From a virus: 30,632 nucleotides of DNA. Under the pieces are notes generated by a model, which was given only the letters and a program-made list of their open reading frames with translations, was not told the origin of the DNA and made no database searches. Both the position numbers and the translations under genes were made by a program. This document shows positions 11,000 through 19,691 of this stretch, piece by piece. Position 1 is the first letter of the stretch. Each line of letters starts with the position of its first letter. The DNA lies in IMG/VR virus record IMGVR_UViG_3300034198_005786, positions 1 through 30,632 of that record, one strand, 5' to 3'.

Positions 11000-11473
11000 A
11001 TGGCTAATACACCAACCAATACCTACAAAGAAGTTGTGGAACTGTTCCAGAGCATCTGTTTGTCCCACCTTGCTGTAAAGCAATTCCAACTGGGCGGAGA
11101 CATTTCGGACATGGACATCCAAAGCAACGTTAACCCCTTTGTGAGGTACCCATTAGTGTTTATGATTCCGGGCATCTCTACGATGGACAGGTACGGCAAG
11201 ATGGTTCTTGGGTTTTCTTTTGTTGTGGCCGATATCGCCCAGAACGACGAAGACTACCAAACAAACACCCACAACAACACCCTCATGATTATGCAGGACA
11301 TCTTCAGCAAGATCATCAACACAACCTGGGAGGAAGTCAATATCGAATTGGAGACCCCAATCAACTTTACGTTCTTTGTGGAGAAGTTCAACAACAACCT
11401 TGCGGGGGTTTCTGCAGAGATTAACGTCATAGTTAAGTCTCCGTTTAATCTTTGTGACGCTGCGTTTGCATAA
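11000..11473 (+). CDS. Tail-terminator / tail-completion candidate
   Basis: A 157-aa protein with a central RYPLVFMIPG strand, then VLGFSFVVADIAQNDEDYQT and a helix MIMQDIFSKII. This resembles small neck or tail-terminator proteins found in the structural block of Bacteroidota phages. It follows terL and precedes an HK97 gp10-like protein, where neck and tail-completion genes are expected. The stop shares a base with the next start (TAATG). The assignment is by family impression and context. Confidence 0.5.
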   Translation: MANTPTNTYKEVVELFQSICLSHLAVKQFQLGGDISDMDIQSNVNPFVRYPLVFMIPGISTMDRYGKMVLGFSFVVADIAQNDEDYQTNTHNNTLMIMQDIFSKIINTTWEEVNIELETPINFTFFVEKFNNNLAGVSAEINVIVKSPFNLCDAAFA

Positions 11474-11874
11474 TGGGAAAGGGAGATCTAAATTTGACCC
11501 GTGTAATCAAGCAGATGGAAAAGCTGATTGCAGATAGACTTAGGTCTCAAGCACCTGTGTCCGACAAGTCCAAAGGCGGTTCGAAGGGCAAACTTAAAAG
11601 GTCTATCAAGGTCAAGGGCTACTTAGCCCCGGACGGCCTACAGTTTAAGATTGGCTTTGAGACCTATGGCATATTCTTGGATGAAGGCACAGGGGTCTAC
11701 GATAAAGGTCGTTCCCCAGATAAACCCTGGAATCCAAACCCAGGTCCGGGCAAAGGCGGCATCAAGCCAAGATACTGGACCCACCTGCCAAAGCAGGACA
11801 GCATCAGATTTAAAATGCTGATTACAGAAGAAGTAAGACAACAAGCGAAAGCAATTATATTAGGAAAACAATAA
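11473..11874 (+). CDS. HK97 gp10-like tail completion protein
   Basis: A 133-aa protein with a basic helical N-terminus, then LKRSIKVKGYLAPDGLQFKI and YGIFLDEGTGVYDKG, and a basic C-terminal helix. The 'Y-x-I-F-L-D-E-G-T' stretch is typical of the HK97 gp10 family that joins neck and tail. The gene is coupled on both sides by TAATG overlaps. Confidence 0.6.
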   Translation: MGKGDLNLTRVIKQMEKLIADRLRSQAPVSDKSKGGSKGKLKRSIKVKGYLAPDGLQFKIGFETYGIFLDEGTGVYDKGRSPDKPWNPNPGPGKGGIKPRYWTHLPKQDSIRFKMLITEEVRQQAKAIILGKQ

Positions 11875-12668
11875 TGGAAGCGAAATTTAAAATTGGAACC
11901 GAAGAGTTTGGGTTCAAAGAGATAACCCTAAAACAGTACTACGAGCTGTTAGAAATCCTGGGCAAAGAGGGAAAGGCCGCAGAGTTTAAAGTTGTTCAGT
12001 GCATCACAGGCTGCCCAGTTCCCCTGCTGAAGAAGCTAAAGTTTAACGATTGGCTGATAGTGTGGGACGAAACCAGGATCCGCATAGACGAACTGATGGG
12101 CAAAGCAGATGTGATTAAGCCCGTCATAGAGTTTAACGGGGTTAAGTTTGCCCTTCCTGCTGTGGAAGATCTGAGCATCGGAGAGTTCGCAGATTTAGAG
12201 GTCATCTTTTCTTCCCCCAACTCTAAGGAAAGGCTGCACGAAGTTGCAGCAATCCTGTATCGCCCAATCAAAAAGCAGGTGGGCAAAGTTACAGTCTTAG
12301 AAGACTACACTGCAGAAGACGTTAAGGTTAGAGCAGAGGAATTCTTAGACCTCCCAGTGTCAGCAATCCGTTCTGCTAATGCTTTTTTTTTGCAGTCCGC
12401 AAACTCATTACTAAAGAATATCCAGGAATCTTTGCTGAAGAACCCCCAAATGAAGAAGATGTCCTCCGAAGACCAGGAGGTCTTCCGAAGCCTTCTACAG
12501 CTAGATCTTGGTGGCAGCTCATCAATTCACTTTGCGGAGAGGATCCTATCCGATTTCATGCAGCAGCGAAGATACGGATTAGAGAAGCCCTTAATTGGGT
12601 TGCCTGGAAAAAAGCAGAGAATCAAAAAGCTGTTCAAGACCTTCAAAGACAAATTAACCACAAAGTAA
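11874..12668 (+). CDS. Tail assembly chaperone, frame-0 product
   Basis: A 264-aa protein upstream of the large tail genes and tape measure, where the chaperones G/GT of lambda-like phages sit. Its N-terminus (MEAKFKIGTEEFGFKEITLK) and the segment LDLPVSAIRSANAFFLQSAN are typical of tail chaperones in Bacteroidota phages. At codons 170-173 the gene contains nine Ts (12383-12391), a perfect T-TTT-TTT slippery site in this frame. Downstream of it the -1 frame stays open for 94 codons, ending at a TGA that overlaps the next gene's ATG. Frame 0 also stays open, to 12668, ending GLPGKKQRIKKLFKTFKDK. Both tails look like real proteins, so this may encode two isoforms of equal length. Confidence 0.75.
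   Translation: MEAKFKIGTEEFGFKEITLKQYYELLEILGKEGKAAEFKVVQCITGCPVPLLKKLKFNDWLIVWDETRIRIDELMGKADVIKPVIEFNGVKFALPAVEDLSIGEFADLEVIFSSPNSKERLHEVAAILYRPIKKQVGKVTVLEDYTAEDVKVRAEEFLDLPVSAIRSANAFFLQSANSLLKNIQESLLKNPQMKKMSSEDQEVFRSLLQLDLGGSSSIHFAERILSDFMQQRRYGLEKPLIGLPGKKQRIKKLFKTFKDKLTTK
12383..12391 (+). other. T9 slippery site for a probable -1 ribosomal frameshift
   Basis: Nine consecutive Ts; frame 0 reads GCT TTT TTT TTG. P-site and A-site tRNAs can both re-pair after slipping back one base. An alternative explanation is an undercount of the homopolymer: ten Ts would make the -1 frame the only frame. No strong hairpin is seen at the usual 5-9 base spacing downstream. Confidence 0.6.
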
Positions 12669-12673
12669 AATGA
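12389..12673 (+). CDS. Tail assembly chaperone, -1 frame C-terminal extension
   Basis: This open frame is entered only by a -1 shift at the T9 run. The fusion product would be about 266 aa. After the shift it reads VRKLITKEYPGIFAEEP, then a Pro/Arg-rich linker and RSWWQLINSLCGEDPIRFHA, followed by ALNWVAWKKAENQ. A W..LI..L...D......ALN...K pattern is what I expect of the 'T' domain of GT-type chaperones. Its TGA at 12671-12673 overlaps the ATG of the next gene (12670), the same coupling used elsewhere in this operon. No in-frame start of its own is obvious. Confidence 0.55.
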   Translation, partial: FAVRKLITKEYPGIFAEEPPNEEDVLRRPGGLPKPSTARSWWQLINSLCGEDPIRFHAAAKIRIREALNWVAWKKAENQKAVQDLQRQINHKVK

Positions 12674-14628
12674 GCATAGTTTCCACAATACAATCTCCAC
12701 CGATTTGGTCGGCAGCATACAACCCCATTGTTTGGCAGTGTCAATCTGACCAAGTCAACCAGTTCCGATTTAAGTATGTCTTCGACGTCTACTTCGGGGG
12801 AGCAACCGGACCAGTTAGATTCAAAGTTCCAGCCAACCCTGCAGGGCTTGGCACCATCGACGTTTCGTCTTTGGTCCAGGTGGAACTAAGCATCAATGAA
12901 AATCTTCCGATGCTTAGCACAACCCCGTTCTACACTGGAGAAGCCTTAGCAACTGAGGTCTACGTTTTGGCTGGGGAGGAATACGCAACCACAGCAACAG
13001 GACCTTTGGTCATCTACGACGGTCTAGGATTTATTGGTGCCCCTGCGTACGGACTGTATGCAGATGGAAACTTTAGACCTGCACCGAACTACACAACCCC
13101 AGTGGTTGCCTGGGCGGCAGGACAAAACCCCCAAGACTATTACGACTGGTTGGCTCTTGGTGGAGAAGTTGCACTGGACTATGAGATGGCACTTGGACAA
13201 ACCCAAGACACCGGCGGAAAGTTCCTAACCCGTTGCCCTTATACGCCCCAGTCCATTAGATCGGACGAAGATTTTACGTTGACTTGGTTGAACTACAACT
13301 TCGAAGCTGCAACCGGACCGCAGAGAGTTCCGTATGCAATGAAGGCTTCCCTCTACAACAACGGAGTTTCTGTTGGGGAGAGCATCTTCTACAACACAAC
13401 CACAGAGGGCGGCGGACCTTGGCTGGACTGCGACGGACCTTACCCTGGAGGACCAACCGGAGCAGAGTGGTATCTGCAGTCGTTTAAGATTAACCCAGCC
13501 GAAATTACGACATACACCAGAACCAAATTTGAACTCTGGGCAAGCCAAGATCAACCACCATACTACGGATGGCAGTTCGGGGCTTTCTCTCCGACCGCAG
13601 ATGTGTTTCCTAACCAGATTTCATCTGGACTTACCCCACCAGTTTCAGGTGTAAGCATAGGTTCCGAAGACGACACTTGGCTAACCCTTAGTCCAACCAA
13701 TGCAACAGGTTCTACTGAGATTGTCTACAAAGCCATATCGGTACCCAACGGTTCAGTGTTAGAGTTAGAACTTGGTTCTTCCAACGCTTGGGGAACAGAT
13801 TTTCCTGAGTTCCAACTGTGGGGAAGTACGGGTGCTACCCTAACAACTGGTTCAAACTGGGAAAGGATAGGGGACTTTACGCCTTCGGAAAACCCAACTA
13901 ATTTTACTTACTATACATTTACTGGTACGGTAGCTAAAACTTACTATGCCCTAGGTCTTAGATTCAAAGTTTCTGGACCAACTCAGTACAACCAAACCTT
14001 GATTGGACCAACCGGTTACCCTTCAGCAACAAATCTAAACGTTATCAACAAGTGGGACATCACTTCTCCGTTGACCGCCCAGTTCGACCAGATTTGTCTA
14101 CAACTTTTCCCTAAAGCAACCCAGTTTTCCGACTGTGAACTTGGGGCTACGGGGCTAAGCGAAGAGATCTGTCTTACCATAGACGACACAAACTGCTGGG
14201 GATTCCAGCCAATCCGCTTCGCATGGCTAAATAACTTGGGCGGCAGAGATTGGTTTACCTTCATCAAGCGTAATACTTTCACTCAAGTGGCAGAAAGATC
14301 TACGTTCTACCAGCTTCCTGGGTACTGGTCGGGATCCTATTCAGTGCAGAACAACCAGCCGGCAAGGTTTGGTACCACAGTCTTTAACGTTGCCCTTGAG
14401 AACAGCTGGACAGCTTCGACAGATTGGCTAACCGAAGAACAATCGGCTTGGCTGAGAGGCATGTTTGCTTCCCCGCACGTTATAGTTTACCTGCCCGATA
14501 GAACAGAACCAGTTCAGGTTGTGATTACAGATGCATCTTATTCGGTGCAAACCATTCGCAGGGAAAACCTATTCCAATACTTTGTTTCATTTGTGGAATC
14601 TCAGCCGGACGTAGTACAAGGATATTAA
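12670..14628 (+). CDS. Large tail structural protein, 652 aa
   Basis: A Gly/Thr/Pro/aromatic-rich, beta-looking protein with no membrane segment. It lies between the tail chaperone and another large tail protein, so I infer a baseplate or distal-tail component. It carries many short Ala/Pro-Thr-Gly motifs (GGATGPV, TATGPLV, AATGPQ, GGPTGAE, NATGST, STGAT, IGPTGY, LGATGL). The C-terminal 80 residues (WLTEEQSAWLRGMFASP, then VIVYLPDRTEPVQVVITD, ending DVVQGY) look like a conserved folded domain. Several cysteines cluster around residues 490-510. I know no named family for it. Confidence 0.6.
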   Translation: MSIVSTIQSPPIWSAAYNPIVWQCQSDQVNQFRFKYVFDVYFGGATGPVRFKVPANPAGLGTIDVSSLVQVELSINENLPMLSTTPFYTGEALATEVYVLAGEEYATTATGPLVIYDGLGFIGAPAYGLYADGNFRPAPNYTTPVVAWAAGQNPQDYYDWLALGGEVALDYEMALGQTQDTGGKFLTRCPYTPQSIRSDEDFTLTWLNYNFEAATGPQRVPYAMKASLYNNGVSVGESIFYNTTTEGGGPWLDCDGPYPGGPTGAEWYLQSFKINPAEITTYTRTKFELWASQDQPPYYGWQFGAFSPTADVFPNQISSGLTPPVSGVSIGSEDDTWLTLSPTNATGSTEIVYKAISVPNGSVLELELGSSNAWGTDFPEFQLWGSTGATLTTGSNWERIGDFTPSENPTNFTYYTFTGTVAKTYYALGLRFKVSGPTQYNQTLIGPTGYPSATNLNVINKWDITSPLTAQFDQICLQLFPKATQFSDCELGATGLSEEICLTIDDTNCWGFQPIRFAWLNNLGGRDWFTFIKRNTFTQVAERSTFYQLPGYWSGSYSVQNNQPARFGTTVFNVALENSWTASTDWLTEEQSAWLRGMFASPHVIVYLPDRTEPVQVVITDASYSVQTIRRENLFQYFVSFVESQPDVVQGY

Positions 14629-14629
14629 T

Positions 14630-17464
14630 ATGAAAGCACAGTTATACGCCAAGAACACCCTTAACCAAACGGTACTTCTCCAACTAACAGAGGACTTTCC
14701 GATCAACATGAATCTGTCGGTGCAGGACCAAAATCCCTTCACCACAAATTCTTTCTATTCTGAAACGTTTAGGATTCCTGGACAGGGAGCGAACGGCAAG
14801 TTCTTCGAAGACGTCTACTCAGTCAACGGGGCGACCTTCAATGCTGGAAAAGCAGCAGAGGCCTGGATTTTAGCCGATGGTTTTATCTTCTCCATAGGAA
14901 ATCTTAGCTTGGTCAACGTTTACACAAACGACTACAGCGGGACCATCGAATACGAAGTGTTCTTTATGGGGGACACTTCCAACTTTGCAACGTCGGTTGG
15001 TGATGCTTTCATGAACACCATCGACACAACAGAGTTAAACCACAATCTAACCTACTCAGCCATTACGACTTCTTGGGGAGCCTCAGGGGGAACCACTGGT
15101 GGATTCAAAGATGGCAACGTGCTCTACCCGTTGTGTGAGTGGGGCTACGAATACGACAGCAACAACTACCCGACCCAAGCAACTCTTTCTGTAGGCTATC
15201 CCAAAGGTTCTTCTGGGCCCAAAGGTGGATCGTTCACAAACGGGGCTACTTCGGGGCTAACGCTAACCCAGTTTAAACCGGCAGTTAGAGTTAAGTGGCT
15301 GTGGGACAAGATCTTTTCGGACGCAGGGTTTACCTATAATTCGGACTTTATCAACTCAGAACTGTTCGATAATCTGTACATGATATCGGATTCGGTTTCC
15401 AGAACCAAACAGGATATCCAAGCAGGACTGTGCAAGATGACTGCAAACGACTTTACCCTCTTTACAGGGCAGCAAGAAATAGTTAGGTACACCAACACAA
15501 TTTCCAACGTAGACAGGGCTTTTGAACCTGTTACATCAACTTGGATTTCTCCGGCGGACGGAGACTTTACGTTCAACATCAGCGGCTACTGCTACTTCCC
15601 AATTGGCAACTTTGGATATCCACAGGGTGCTTTTAAAGTCTACGTCTACAAAAATGGTAGCACTTTAATAAACACCCCGGTAGTTAGGTTGACCCCAAAC
15701 CCCACTTTTTCCCTTGGTCCTTTTATAACCTATTGGCAGGAGAACCTAGTTGAAACTCTTTTACAGGGGGATAGAATTACTGTACAGATTCAACAGATGC
15801 CCTACGGAAACTCTTCTGCAGTATTCGGGGGAAACACCTTCCAGTGCGGAGACGCCCCGGATTTCGTTGTTGTTTCGTCTTTCTTCCCGGGCCAAGGAAC
15901 CCTAAAGAAAATAGAATTTATCAAAGCCATCACCACCATGTTTAATCTGGTGTGGGAGCCAAGCAGAGAAGAAGAAAAGAATTTCCAAATTCAGCCATGG
16001 GTTGACTGGGCAGAAAGCGGTTCTCAGAAAGACTGGACGAAACTCTTAGATGCTTCGACCGACATGCAGTTAACCCCTGCTTTTATCGGACAACCCCACA
16101 TTCTAAACTTTACTGGTCTTGACGATAGCGACCTACAGAACACAGAATACCAGGACGAATACAAGAGAAACTGGTTGTACAGAGAATTCAATTCTGGAAT
16201 TAAAGTTATTAGAGAGACTGGAGAAGTTTCTATTCCATTTGGGGGAACACCTTTGGAATCTATTCCTTCTAAACTTGTTACCCAATATCCAGATTGGGTT
16301 ATCCCAACGATGGGCAAACTGCTTCCCGGAGATCCTGCACAGAACCAATCTGGTAAAGTGCAGTCCATTCAGCCTAAACCCCGCATTCTGTTCTACAACG
16401 GGCTACAGAACAATCCTGTTCCCTGGTATTTAGACAACGATGCACTTGGCCCAACTGGAACAGCACAGAACCAATACCCACTTGTGTCGGAGTTTTCGTC
16501 TTTCCCGCCGGACAACTTTACAGAACTTGTTCTAAACTTCCAGTCTAAACCAGCCCTGTGGTCTAATGCTTCTACGTTTGTTCAGCAGTCTCAGAACGAC
16601 CTGTATGTGACCTATTGGCAGAAGTATATTGAGTGGATCTACAACGTCTACAACAGAAGAGTTACTGCAACCTTTAGACTTGACCCATACGACGTGCAAA
16701 ACCTTAAGTTCAACGATAAAGTTTGGGTTAAGGATTCTTGGTTCTTCGTAGAGAAGATCAACAACTACCCAGTAGGAGAAGTTGCACTGGTGGAAGTAGA
16801 CTTAATTAAGGTTCCAGATTCTATTACCCCTCCGGGCGTTGTTCCAGCAACAGGTCCAACAGGAGGAGTTTGCTTCTCAGTTGCAATCTGCAACAATGAA
16901 CCTGATCTAGAGATGGATCCCGTGTCCTGGACCTATGTGGATTGCAATTTAGAACTGCAGTCCATAACTCTCTATCCATCTACTTGTCAAACTTTGTGTG
17001 CGTTATACCCTAACCCTTATACACTGCCCAACAACTGGACTGAAATTCCCAACGGAAACTGCATAGATGGAATTTATGCAACCGCAGGTTCCTTTGTTGA
17101 AGTTGGTCTTACTGCAGGAGATTACATTGCAGAAGGAAAAATAACTACTGCACTTCTTTCTGGAGCAACCGCAGGACCAACGGGAACCTTTATTCCTATG
17201 CAGTACTTCACAGTCACAGGGGAAGACAGCATTTCAGTTCTGTACAACGTTCCATTTGGCTACGGGGCTAAGATGGATTTAATCTTTGCCAACGGGGCTT
17301 CCGGAGCAACGATATTCTCAGAAACTATCACCCTTAGAAAAGACGGAGTCATTGCTGCAACTGCTGCAAGAAATGCCCCACTATCTTATCAGCCAATTTC
17401 TGCCAAATGGCCTGCTGGAATTACCGGGGGAAGCTACTCAGCAGAATTGATACTAATCTACTAA
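14630..17464 (+). CDS. Large tail protein, 944 aa, possible tail hub or baseplate
   Basis: Begins 1 base after the preceding stop. The N-terminal 120 residues contain LYAKNTLNQTVLLQLTED and FYSETFRIPGQGANGKFFED, a pattern I associate with a tail-tip/baseplate family in Bacteroidota phages. The middle is beta-rich with aromatic residues. Residues about 765-830 are cysteine-rich (GGVCFSVAICNN, YVDCNLE, STCQTLCALYPN, then NGNCIDG). The C-terminus carries GATAGPTGT and NGASGATIF motifs and ends in a beta domain. The position before the tape measure gene suggests hub or tip. The Thr-Gly motifs concentrate in the C-terminal quarter. Confidence 0.6.
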   Translation: MKAQLYAKNTLNQTVLLQLTEDFPINMNLSVQDQNPFTTNSFYSETFRIPGQGANGKFFEDVYSVNGATFNAGKAAEAWILADGFIFSIGNLSLVNVYTNDYSGTIEYEVFFMGDTSNFATSVGDAFMNTIDTTELNHNLTYSAITTSWGASGGTTGGFKDGNVLYPLCEWGYEYDSNNYPTQATLSVGYPKGSSGPKGGSFTNGATSGLTLTQFKPAVRVKWLWDKIFSDAGFTYNSDFINSELFDNLYMISDSVSRTKQDIQAGLCKMTANDFTLFTGQQEIVRYTNTISNVDRAFEPVTSTWISPADGDFTFNISGYCYFPIGNFGYPQGAFKVYVYKNGSTLINTPVVRLTPNPTFSLGPFITYWQENLVETLLQGDRITVQIQQMPYGNSSAVFGGNTFQCGDAPDFVVVSSFFPGQGTLKKIEFIKAITTMFNLVWEPSREEEKNFQIQPWVDWAESGSQKDWTKLLDASTDMQLTPAFIGQPHILNFTGLDDSDLQNTEYQDEYKRNWLYREFNSGIKVIRETGEVSIPFGGTPLESIPSKLVTQYPDWVIPTMGKLLPGDPAQNQSGKVQSIQPKPRILFYNGLQNNPVPWYLDNDALGPTGTAQNQYPLVSEFSSFPPDNFTELVLNFQSKPALWSNASTFVQQSQNDLYVTYWQKYIEWIYNVYNRRVTATFRLDPYDVQNLKFNDKVWVKDSWFFVEKINNYPVGEVALVEVDLIKVPDSITPPGVVPATGPTGGVCFSVAICNNEPDLEMDPVSWTYVDCNLELQSITLYPSTCQTLCALYPNPYTLPNNWTEIPNGNCIDGIYATAGSFVEVGLTAGDYIAEGKITTALLSGATAGPTGTFIPMQYFTVTGEDSISVLYNVPFGYGAKMDLIFANGASGATIFSETITLRKDGVIAATAARNAPLSYQPISAKWPAGITGGSYSAELILIY

Positions 17465-17495: not shown

Positions 17496-19691
17496 ATGGC
17501 GGATATTAATTTTGAGGTAAGCGGCTTTAAGACCTTTAGACAGGAACTTAAAGACGCACAGATAGAGATGCAGAAGGTCATCGCCCAGTTTGGGGAGACC
17601 TCAGCACAAGCACAGAATGCAGCAAAGAACGTTGCAGAAATCAAAGACAAGATAGACGACGCCAACGATGCAGTTTCGTCTTTCACTGGTGCTGGACAGT
17701 TTCAAGCAGTAGGTAAAGCAGTACAAGCTACAGCTGGTGCATTTGCAGCTGCCCAAGGTGCAGCAGCACTCTTCGGTTCCGAATCAGAAGACCTGCAGAA
17801 GACGATGGCCAAACTGCAGGGTGCTTTGGCTTTGACCCAGGGTCTTGCTGCTCTTGAAGATGCAGGACGTGCATTCAAACAGTTGGGCACCGTAGCAGTT
17901 TCTGCTTTCAATGGAATCAAAGCAGCAATTGGTTCTTCTGGGATTGGTCTACTGGTCATTGCAATTTCTGCAGCAGTTGTAGGACTTACTAAAGCATTTG
18001 GGGATGCCGATGAACAAGAAAAGAAAAACCAGGAAACTGTCGACAGTCTTACCAAGTCTTATGAGAAATTAGGAGACGAAATTAATAGGGCTTCCGCCGA
18101 AAATAAAAGGTCTACAGATCTAAGAATAGCAGAGGCAGAGAGAGATAAAAAGTCCCTTGAAGAAATTGCTAAAATTAGAGAAGATGCTTCTTTAGAAGAA
18201 TCAAGACTTGTTATCGTCCAGATAGAAACCCTACAAGGTCAGTACGACAAGAGAAGAAAGCTTGCAATTGCTGCAGCAAAGAAAGAGGGCAAAGACGTTG
18301 AACTTGCAAAACAAGAATTTCAGGACGCCTACGAAAAACAACAAGCAGATCTAAACGAAAAGCTTTACAATCTTGACAATCAAAGAAAGATTGATGCGAT
18401 TAAACTTGAAGTAGACTTAGCTGCAGAGAGAAAAAAGAAAGACGAAGATGCTGCCAAGAAAAGAAAAGACAGGGCGAAGAATGAACTTGACGCCCTAAAT
18501 GCTCTTAACGAAGCAAGAAGAAAGAAGATAGAAGCTGGAACTCTTGACGAGCTTGACCTTGCTAAAGTTAAGTATGACAACGACTTAGCAAGACTAAAAG
18601 AGGCTAAGGATAAAGAACTTGCCCAGGAGGATTTAACTGAAAAGGCTAAAAAAGCCATCAGAGAAAAGTATGCACTTGAAGCAGATACTCTTCTGATCGA
18701 ATACAGTAAGACCCAGCAAGACATAATAGAAAAGAGAAACAAAGAACTTCTTGCTAAGGAAAAAGAGTATCAAGACCAGGTAAAACAAATTAGGGATACT
18801 GAACTTAAAACTCAGATTGAAAACACAGATGCCTATTTCACCCAGAGAGAAACTAAACTACTTGAATCGGGGCTAAGAGAAAGGGACTTGTTAAAAGCCC
18901 AAGACCAACTAGAATTAGAACGTCTTGAAGCACAACTTCAGAATGCAAAAGACTACGGGGAGAGCACAATAGAAATAGAAAAACAGATTGTAGAAAAGAA
19001 AAAGGGGATTAAAGACAAAGAAATTTCAGATACCCGTGCAAGAAACGAAGCACTGTTAGCTGCAGCTTCTGAACTTGTGGATGCTTTATCATCTCTTTCT
19101 AAGTCTCAGATGTCAAGAGAACTTGCAGCAGCAGAAGATAATGCAGCAAAGCAAGAGCAAATCAAAGAAGAATACTTCGAAAAAGACAAAAACTTCCAGT
19201 ATGCTAAGACTACTATAGCAGGTATCCAAGCCGGAATGCAAGCATTTGCCCAGGGTATGGAAATTGGAGGACCTGTTCTTGCAGGTGTTCTATTGGCTGC
19301 TTCAGCTGCAACCACACTGATCCAACTTGCAGCAATTGCTAACACCCAATACGTAGGATCTTCTTCTAGTTCTACTTCTAAAACTTCAGATTCCAAAGGA
19401 AAAGGTTCCCAGTATGCAGAAGGTGGACTTCTCTACGGACCTTCCCATAACATGGGCGGCATAAGAACTGCTCTTGGAGAGCTTGAAGGCGGTGAATTTG
19501 TGATTAACAAACAGTCTACTGCAGCTTTCCTACCACTTCTGCAGCAGATAAATGCAATGGGTAACCAAGGAAACCCACAGATGGCAGGGGTTGGTCAAGG
19601 TCCGTCTAACATAAGAGCCTACGTTTTGGCTGGAGATGTAACTTCCGCACAAGAAGCAAATGCAAGACTGAACAGTTTAGCCAAACTATAA
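17496..19691 (+). CDS. Tail tape measure protein
   Basis: A 731-aa protein with the classical make-up: an Ala/Gln-rich helical start, hydrophobic stretches near residues 60-95 (AVGKAVQATAGAFAAAQGAA), 145-170 (GIGLLVIAISAAVVGL) and 585-610 (LAGVLLAASAATTLIQLAAI), and a long highly charged Lys/Glu coiled coil between about 170 and 550. The C-terminus GELEGGEFVINKQSTAAF is typical of tape measures. It sets tail length; at roughly 0.15 nm per residue this predicts a tail of about 110 nm, in line with a siphovirus. A Ser-rich linker (GSSSSSTSKTSDSKG) precedes the C-terminal part. It is preceded by its own TATACTT element. Confidence 0.9.
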   Translation: MADINFEVSGFKTFRQELKDAQIEMQKVIAQFGETSAQAQNAAKNVAEIKDKIDDANDAVSSFTGAGQFQAVGKAVQATAGAFAAAQGAAALFGSESEDLQKTMAKLQGALALTQGLAALEDAGRAFKQLGTVAVSAFNGIKAAIGSSGIGLLVIAISAAVVGLTKAFGDADEQEKKNQETVDSLTKSYEKLGDEINRASAENKRSTDLRIAEAERDKKSLEEIAKIREDASLEESRLVIVQIETLQGQYDKRRKLAIAAAKKEGKDVELAKQEFQDAYEKQQADLNEKLYNLDNQRKIDAIKLEVDLAAERKKKDEDAAKKRKDRAKNELDALNALNEARRKKIEAGTLDELDLAKVKYDNDLARLKEAKDKELAQEDLTEKAKKAIREKYALEADTLLIEYSKTQQDIIEKRNKELLAKEKEYQDQVKQIRDTELKTQIENTDAYFTQRETKLLESGLRERDLLKAQDQLELERLEAQLQNAKDYGESTIEIEKQIVEKKKGIKDKEISDTRARNEALLAAASELVDALSSLSKSQMSRELAAAEDNAAKQEQIKEEYFEKDKNFQYAKTTIAGIQAGMQAFAQGMEIGGPVLAGVLLAASAATTLIQLAAIANTQYVGSSSSSTSKTSDSKGKGSQYAEGGLLYGPSHNMGGIRTALGELEGGEFVINKQSTAAFLPLLQQINAMGNQGNPQMAGVGQGPSNIRAYVLAGDVTSAQEANARLNSLAKL

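Follow-up and report, generated by a model that had tools for sequence, protein, structure and literature searches.

Two selected tails in overlapping frames after an invariant run of nine Ts in a phage gene resembling the G/GT tail assembly chaperones

We consider a stretch of viral DNA (IMG/VR virus record IMGVR_UViG_3300034198_005786, positions 1 to 30,632; the whole stretch of 30,632 bases is called the window below) in which a gene runs through nine consecutive Ts and stays open in two frames. The 276 nt between this slip site and the frame-0 stop are truly dual-coding, as shown by sequence statistics: both tails are under protein-level selection, which for the frame-0 tail is purifying. 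This follows from the avoidance of stop codons together with a suppression of -1-synonymous changes that is specific to frame 0. The account as a whole, a G/GT-like gene with a frame shift at T9 and two selected tails, is likely, with no expression data behind it. The features that the argument needs are the following:

11874-12668, + strand: frame-0 gene, 264 aa, with 92 codons after the slip; TAA at 12666-12668
11874..12389, + strand: common N-terminal part (N part), 172 aa up to ...NAFF, PHROG 32199-like
12377..12379, + strand: TAA stop of the -1 frame, just 5' of the T run (window sequence)
12383..12391, + strand: T9 slip site, read in frame 0 as GCT TTT TTT TTG
12390..12668, + strand: frame-0 tail, 92 aa, the end of the standard product
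12389..12673, + strand: -1 frame tail, 94 aa, T-domain-like, without a Met codon; TGA at 12671-12673
12670..14628, + strand: next gene, 652 aa, its ATG overlapping the -1 stop
17496..19691, + strand: probable tape measure protein, 731 aa, three genes downstream of the slip-site gene (phrog_9483, E 6.8e-5)

The T9 run is the sole homopolymer of nine or more bases in the window. Frame -1 is open from just past the TAA on its 5' side, across the T run and up to the TGA whose last base is 12673, and a stop is also found at the position of that TAA in many homologues; because the -1 frame is closed there, the frame shift must occur at or near the T run (in the run or later). The fused -1 product has 266 aa, made of the 172-aa N part and 94 codons after the slip. 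In the window, peptides found in one tail only come from NPQMKKMSSEDQEVFR for frame 0 and from RPGGLPKPSTAR for frame -1. The -1 TGA overlaps the ATG of the next gene (12670), and this ATG starts 2 nt beyond the last base of the frame-0 stop. The original prediction of a T9 run with two equally long open tails (products of 264 and about 266 aa) holds, with coordinates and lengths right, and so does its claim that the -1 TGA overlaps the next ATG.

Homologues are collected via the terminase gene, via a DNA pattern around the T run and via protein profiles; the pattern of one scan contained T9 itself, and the profile scans carry no T9 requirement. The N part of the window, used as the only query against viral contigs, gives no homologues, and a scan of genome contigs finds no relative. 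Exactly nine Ts are present in all 80 distinct homologues that reach beyond the slip (the window included), and a run of 7, 8 or 10 Ts at the slip site is found in none of them. These 80 form 43 clusters at 70% and 24 clusters at 50% identity of the N part, and they include the isolated Nonlabens phages P12024S and P12024L, both with exactly nine Ts. The only cultured relatives found infect a flavobacterium; the remaining homologues are from uncultured tailed phages. The run starts at codon position 3 in 46 homologues, at position 2 in 31 and at position 1 in 3, and the peptide encoded at the run differs between these phases. The spectrum of run lengths in 1.04 Mb of fetched DNA (partly redundant) has a spike at nine (31 runs of eight, 196 of nine and 3 of ten). 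The -1 frame is open after T9 in 80/80 homologues.

As a side observation, the +1 frame is shut within 14 codons just past the T run in every one of the 80. Such closure would be desirable if polymerase slippage also made eight-U messages; the frequency expected from dual coding has not been compared.

Is the count of nine itself an error? Homopolymer miscounts are a frequent sequencing fault and the raw reads have not been inspected, and the plain alternative offered by the original prediction was a run of really ten Ts, with only the -1 tail coding. This explanation is all but excluded and the alternative fails, as the nine Ts recur in 80/80 homologues from different assemblies and in the isolates P12024S and P12024L, and frame 0 is under selection.

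The homologues fall into two classes according to their frame-0 tail. In the long class (27/80, the window among them), frame 0 is open for 70-98 codons after the slip and stops close to where the -1 tail finishes; in 13 of the 27, its stop precedes the -1 stop by exactly 5 nt. In the short class (51/80), frame 0 ends after 16-55 codons, as in P12024S, where it stops 25 codons after the slip. The remaining 2/80 are truncated by contig ends and are outside both classes. The T frame is without any ATG in 18 of the 27 long-tail homologues, window included, and therefore a frame change is most likely needed there to make the T tail.

The dual openness after T9 is far beyond chance, as three measures demonstrate. 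When random synonymous codons are simulated for the window's own -1 protein, frame 0 is open this long with P about 0.0035. By a cruder yardstick, the +1 frame is open in 3.6% of the 92-codon stretches of other window genes. Finally, frame-0 codons 1-72 of the 27 long-tail homologues contain no stop where about 89 are expected. The original prediction would have been refuted by homologues in which one frame is conserved and the other is interrupted by stops, and this is not borne out in the long-tail homologues.

To measure selection we compare the overlap with two single-coding controls, the N part and the first 120 codons of the next gene. Four-fold sites of the -1 frame are counted between close pairs: 18/107 differ within the overlap, against 79/149 in the N part (P 2e-9) and 84/131 in the next gene (P 7e-14). 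Over five independent long-tail pairs, 60/355 overlap codons are changed synonymously in the -1 frame, compared with 165/407 codons of the single-coded N part (P 5e-13). This deficit concerns the changes that frame 0 would feel: -1-synonymous changes altering frame 0 occur at a rate of 0.0585, 2.7-fold rarer than the 0.159 of both controls, while those silent in frame 0, though few, are not reduced. Over all pairs, the frame-0 nonsynonymous/synonymous ratio is 0.53 (0.41-0.71), compared with 1.00 (0.86-1.21) and 1.30 (1.07-1.62) for the controls. In distant pairs, we permute the codons without altering the -1 protein or the codon usage of the region; the frame-0 similarity exceeds the permutations with z 15.4 (identity) and 17.1 (BLOSUM), the controls giving 5.2/0.8 and 3.5/2.0. 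An alignment of homologues in both frames and a synonymous-site test in each were the checks proposed with the original prediction; both have now been run, and they find both frames conserved and selection in each.

The frame-0 constraint is not uniform, being strongest over codons 1-36, moderate to codon 60 and weak over codons 61-84, so that the last third of the tail is its least constrained part. Double-nonsynonymous changes, which alter the protein of each frame, show no deficit relative to the control (0.0358 vs 0.0349), and the frame-0 constraint is therefore only moderate. Two further possible signs of selection add little or nothing. Among the short-tail lineages, constraint falls off past the frame-0 stop only marginally (P 0.049), and this weak contrast, with 16 independent pairs, does not support a sharp end of constraint at that stop. 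The "basic helix" that had been pointed out at the end of frame 0 is not evidence of selection, as a basic C-terminus is expected from the -1 protein alone (charge 5.5 observed, 5.1 simulated).

One alternative is that only the -1 tail is functional and that frame 0 is kept open for translational coupling to the start of the next gene, by avoiding a stop about 275 nt upstream of it. In its favor, the 13/27 long-tail homologues mentioned above have their frame-0 stop beside the next gene's start, 5 nt ahead of the -1 stop, and frame-0 codons 61-84 are open though little constrained. Stop avoidance alone, however, would not suppress amino-acid changes in frame 0, yet these are 2.7-fold rarer and the frame-0-silent changes are not; moreover, frame 0 of other lineages stops 77-215 nt before the T stop. 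We regard coupling alone as unlikely.

Alternatively, the synonymous sites might be constrained by an element in the RNA or DNA, such as a frameshift stimulator, and not by a frame-0 protein. A conserved RNA stimulator was sought by folding and by covariation and is unsupported: of nine 100-nt downstream stretches, only that of homologue L025 folds better than its shuffles (z -3.0, against roughly -0.4 to +1.4 for the other eight), and covariation for an RNA stem near the slip site is nil. In the long-tail clade, the last Ts of the run could also form part of a small hairpin, UUUGC-AGUCC-GCAAA (window 12389-12403; columns 30-44 of alignment A4), with too little covariation to judge it. The element explanation can point to this stem at the slip site and to a constraint that peaks right after the T run. 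It is nevertheless very unlikely, because the suppression is specific to frame-0 nonsynonymous changes, no fold is consistent apart from the L025 exception, and the avoidance of stops over 72 codons would be left unexplained. Selection on a frame-0 protein remains our reading of the overlap.

We turn to the identity of the gene. The N part matches PHROG 32199 (E 4.9e-7), a family of unknown function. AlphaFold modelling on 22 homologues predicts the N part with confidence, with two beta-hairpin/helix units, together with a helix (residues 162-188) that spans the slip site and runs on into the frame-0 tail. The confidence drops after about residue 210. The -1 tail is helical in the model. Its conserved core, WW..LN.L....P......LP.R.ALNWL.WK, corresponds to the T-domain pattern that the original prediction had pointed out, which holds. 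A search of PDB folds gives no significant match. Weak fold matches include the HK97 chaperone 2ob9 (Z 3.0, 81 aligned residues, rmsd 3.8, model residues 82-177) and YqbN 3klu (Z 3.8, 74 aligned residues, rmsd 3.6, model residues 1-74). In BFVD, the entry A0A8S5RU45, named "Tail assembly chaperone", is matched at E 0.044 with prob 1.00, and many uncharacterised proteins of 175-285 aa are matched in the viral structure library. The structure search with the T tail gives weak matches only, nearly all to unnamed or uncharacterised viral proteins. None of the Pfam/NCBIfam chaperone families is matched above cut-off, Phage_TAC_7 being matched by one family member only (E 0.052), and there is no detectable sequence match to HK97 gp13. 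From the gene anatomy and the weak fold matches we infer that the gene is tail-assembly-chaperone-like, of the G/GT kind, without being a proven member; the label "tail chaperone" of the original prediction is thus held in part, no family match being significant.

Flavobacterium phage 6H (L077; 9500-10927, minus strand) offers an observation of its own. Its gp10 is probably the protein that the viral structure library gives as a remote fold match to the N part, the length of 191 aa being the same. As a T9 homologue it is rejected, since it has no T9 run. Behind it, in another frame and without a T9 run, lies an unannotated T-like stretch (...GLGMKGVLLSMAESGVYGPEQ..LWEILIRMYDITKRSLDEEAAYKKLEKK), and it is possible that 6H uses a different slip site.

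The slip-site gene is located in a tail gene cluster, upstream of the probable tape measure gene, with two large genes between them (12670-17464; 652 and 944 aa) that are without a PHROG match at E 1 or a Pfam match above cut-off. Upstream of it is a gp10-like gene, whose Pfam match (E 0.091) falls short of the cut-off. A G/GT gene is expected between those of the major tail protein and the tape measure, and in the window a gene for the major tail protein is not identified. The G/T gene is found behind the gp10-like gene in the window clade (window 11000-12668) and in L049. It immediately follows the terminase gene in P12024S, L045 and L047, and comes one gene after it in L062. Comparison of the window with L002, L045, L047, L062 and L049 indicates that the G/T gene has moved within a conserved cluster.

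The mechanism that we propose is inferred. Most expression would stay in frame 0 and give a "long G" of 264 aa that has a C-terminal tail of its own, under selection, and a minority would shift to -1 at T9 and give a 266-aa "GT" with a helical T-like domain; both the expression and the ratio are putative. By inference also from the chaperone function, the common part would act on the tape measure protein and the T domain would recruit the tail tube; in the G/GT class, G is bound to the tape measure protein and T to the major tail protein, and the virion contains neither. The tail of long G, which in the model begins as a continuation of the helix crossing the slip site, may have a separate role.

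How might the frame be changed? We favor slippage of RNA polymerase that adds a tenth U, a proposal that may as easily prove wrong as right, over -1 slippage of the ribosome on U_UUU_UUU in the same dual-coding gene, as in lambda G/GT; the small remainder is left to both acting. The ribosomal explanation has points in its favor. The direction is -1 in 80/80 homologues, and a constant direction is treated as a sign of ribosomal shifting (PMC3711429); an in-frame U_UUU_UUU (an X_XXY_YYZ heptamer) is available within T9 in every codon phase; and the published chaperone cases that we found, those of the lambda type (PMC5009743) among them, are attributed to the ribosome (PMC5009743, PMC10885494). 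Against it, seven Ts would suffice for the heptamer, but every run has exactly nine, despite a peptide that depends on the phase; no conserved RNA stimulator is detected; and nine Ts is a length at which bacterial RNA polymerase slips efficiently (PMC5009743). We hold ribosomal slippage to be the weaker candidate, a shade more doubtful than credible.

For transcriptional slippage, the criterion of a homopolymer of about nine A or T bases is fulfilled by T9 in 80/80 homologues and in all codon phases. The inference rule that the direction of the change is not conserved among orthologues (PMC3711429), which is not a strict requirement, is not met. Because the run is exactly nine in all phases and no conserved RNA stem is detected, polymerase slippage is at least as likely as ribosomal slippage. 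The argument from nine Ts is suggestive and not a proof, since the dual-coding constraint alone could fix Ts 8 and 9 in the commonest phase. A bolder reading is that programmed polymerase slippage on the invariant T9 makes the chaperone pair, and that the product without the shift has, in one large group, acquired a functional second tail of full length over the sequence of the T domain itself, giving two alternative chaperones of equal length from a single dual-coded stretch; this we offer only tentatively, with the balance leaning slightly against it.

What is already known is the frameshifting of G/GT chaperones with an early frame-0 stop, and what is new is a long, selected second tail on the short form. 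In the SEA-PHAGES annotated training set (nearly all tail chaperones), the slip averages 26 nt before the frame-0 stop (PMC10885494). In the open literature that we searched (the original survey of chaperone frameshifts being outside its scope), there is no report of transcriptional slippage in tail assembly chaperones or of such a dual-coded pair, and a search for the two subjects jointly gave a review, a survey and a tool, with no such case. As the unshifted product carries a second selected tail, tail assembly may use two alternative chaperone tails, and not the presence or absence of T. With a T9 that is invariant in three codon phases, these genes are well suited to telling polymerase from ribosome slippage in phage assembly. 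There is also a warning for annotation: the T tail is missed because only a long frame-0 gene, or two "hypothetical" genes, are called, the latter being how genes 38 and 39 of P12024S are annotated.

Several known systems can be compared with the window gene. The dnaX gene of Thermus thermophilus likewise has nine identical A/T bases as its slip site (PMC5009743, PMC3711429); there, both other frames stop nearby, whereas the -1 frame of the window is a selected domain, and polymerase slippage has not been shown for the window. In genes of the Shigella spa13/mxiE type, polymerase slippage produces alternative C-termini in secretion-system genes, some with a part in length control (PMC5009743, PMC3711429), but these are host and not phage genes, and no long dual-coded alternative tail is described in the sections bearing on them. 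Genes 38 and 39 of Nonlabens (Persicivirga) phage P12024S have a homologous N part (gene 38, PHROG 32199-type), the exact T9 and a homologous -1 T domain, and differ in their early frame-0 end, 25 codons after the slip. With gpG/gpGT of phage lambda and gp13/14 of HK97, the window gene shares a common N part to which a T domain is added via a -1 change, the small helical T-like domain itself, and a place among the tail genes on the 5' side of the tape measure gene (a probable one in the window). It differs from them in not adjoining that gene, in having no detectable sequence homology to HK97 gp13 and in having T9 instead of another heptamer; frame 0 stops soon after the slip in lambda and HK97, while in the window it runs on for 276 nt and gives two products that are nearly equal in length.
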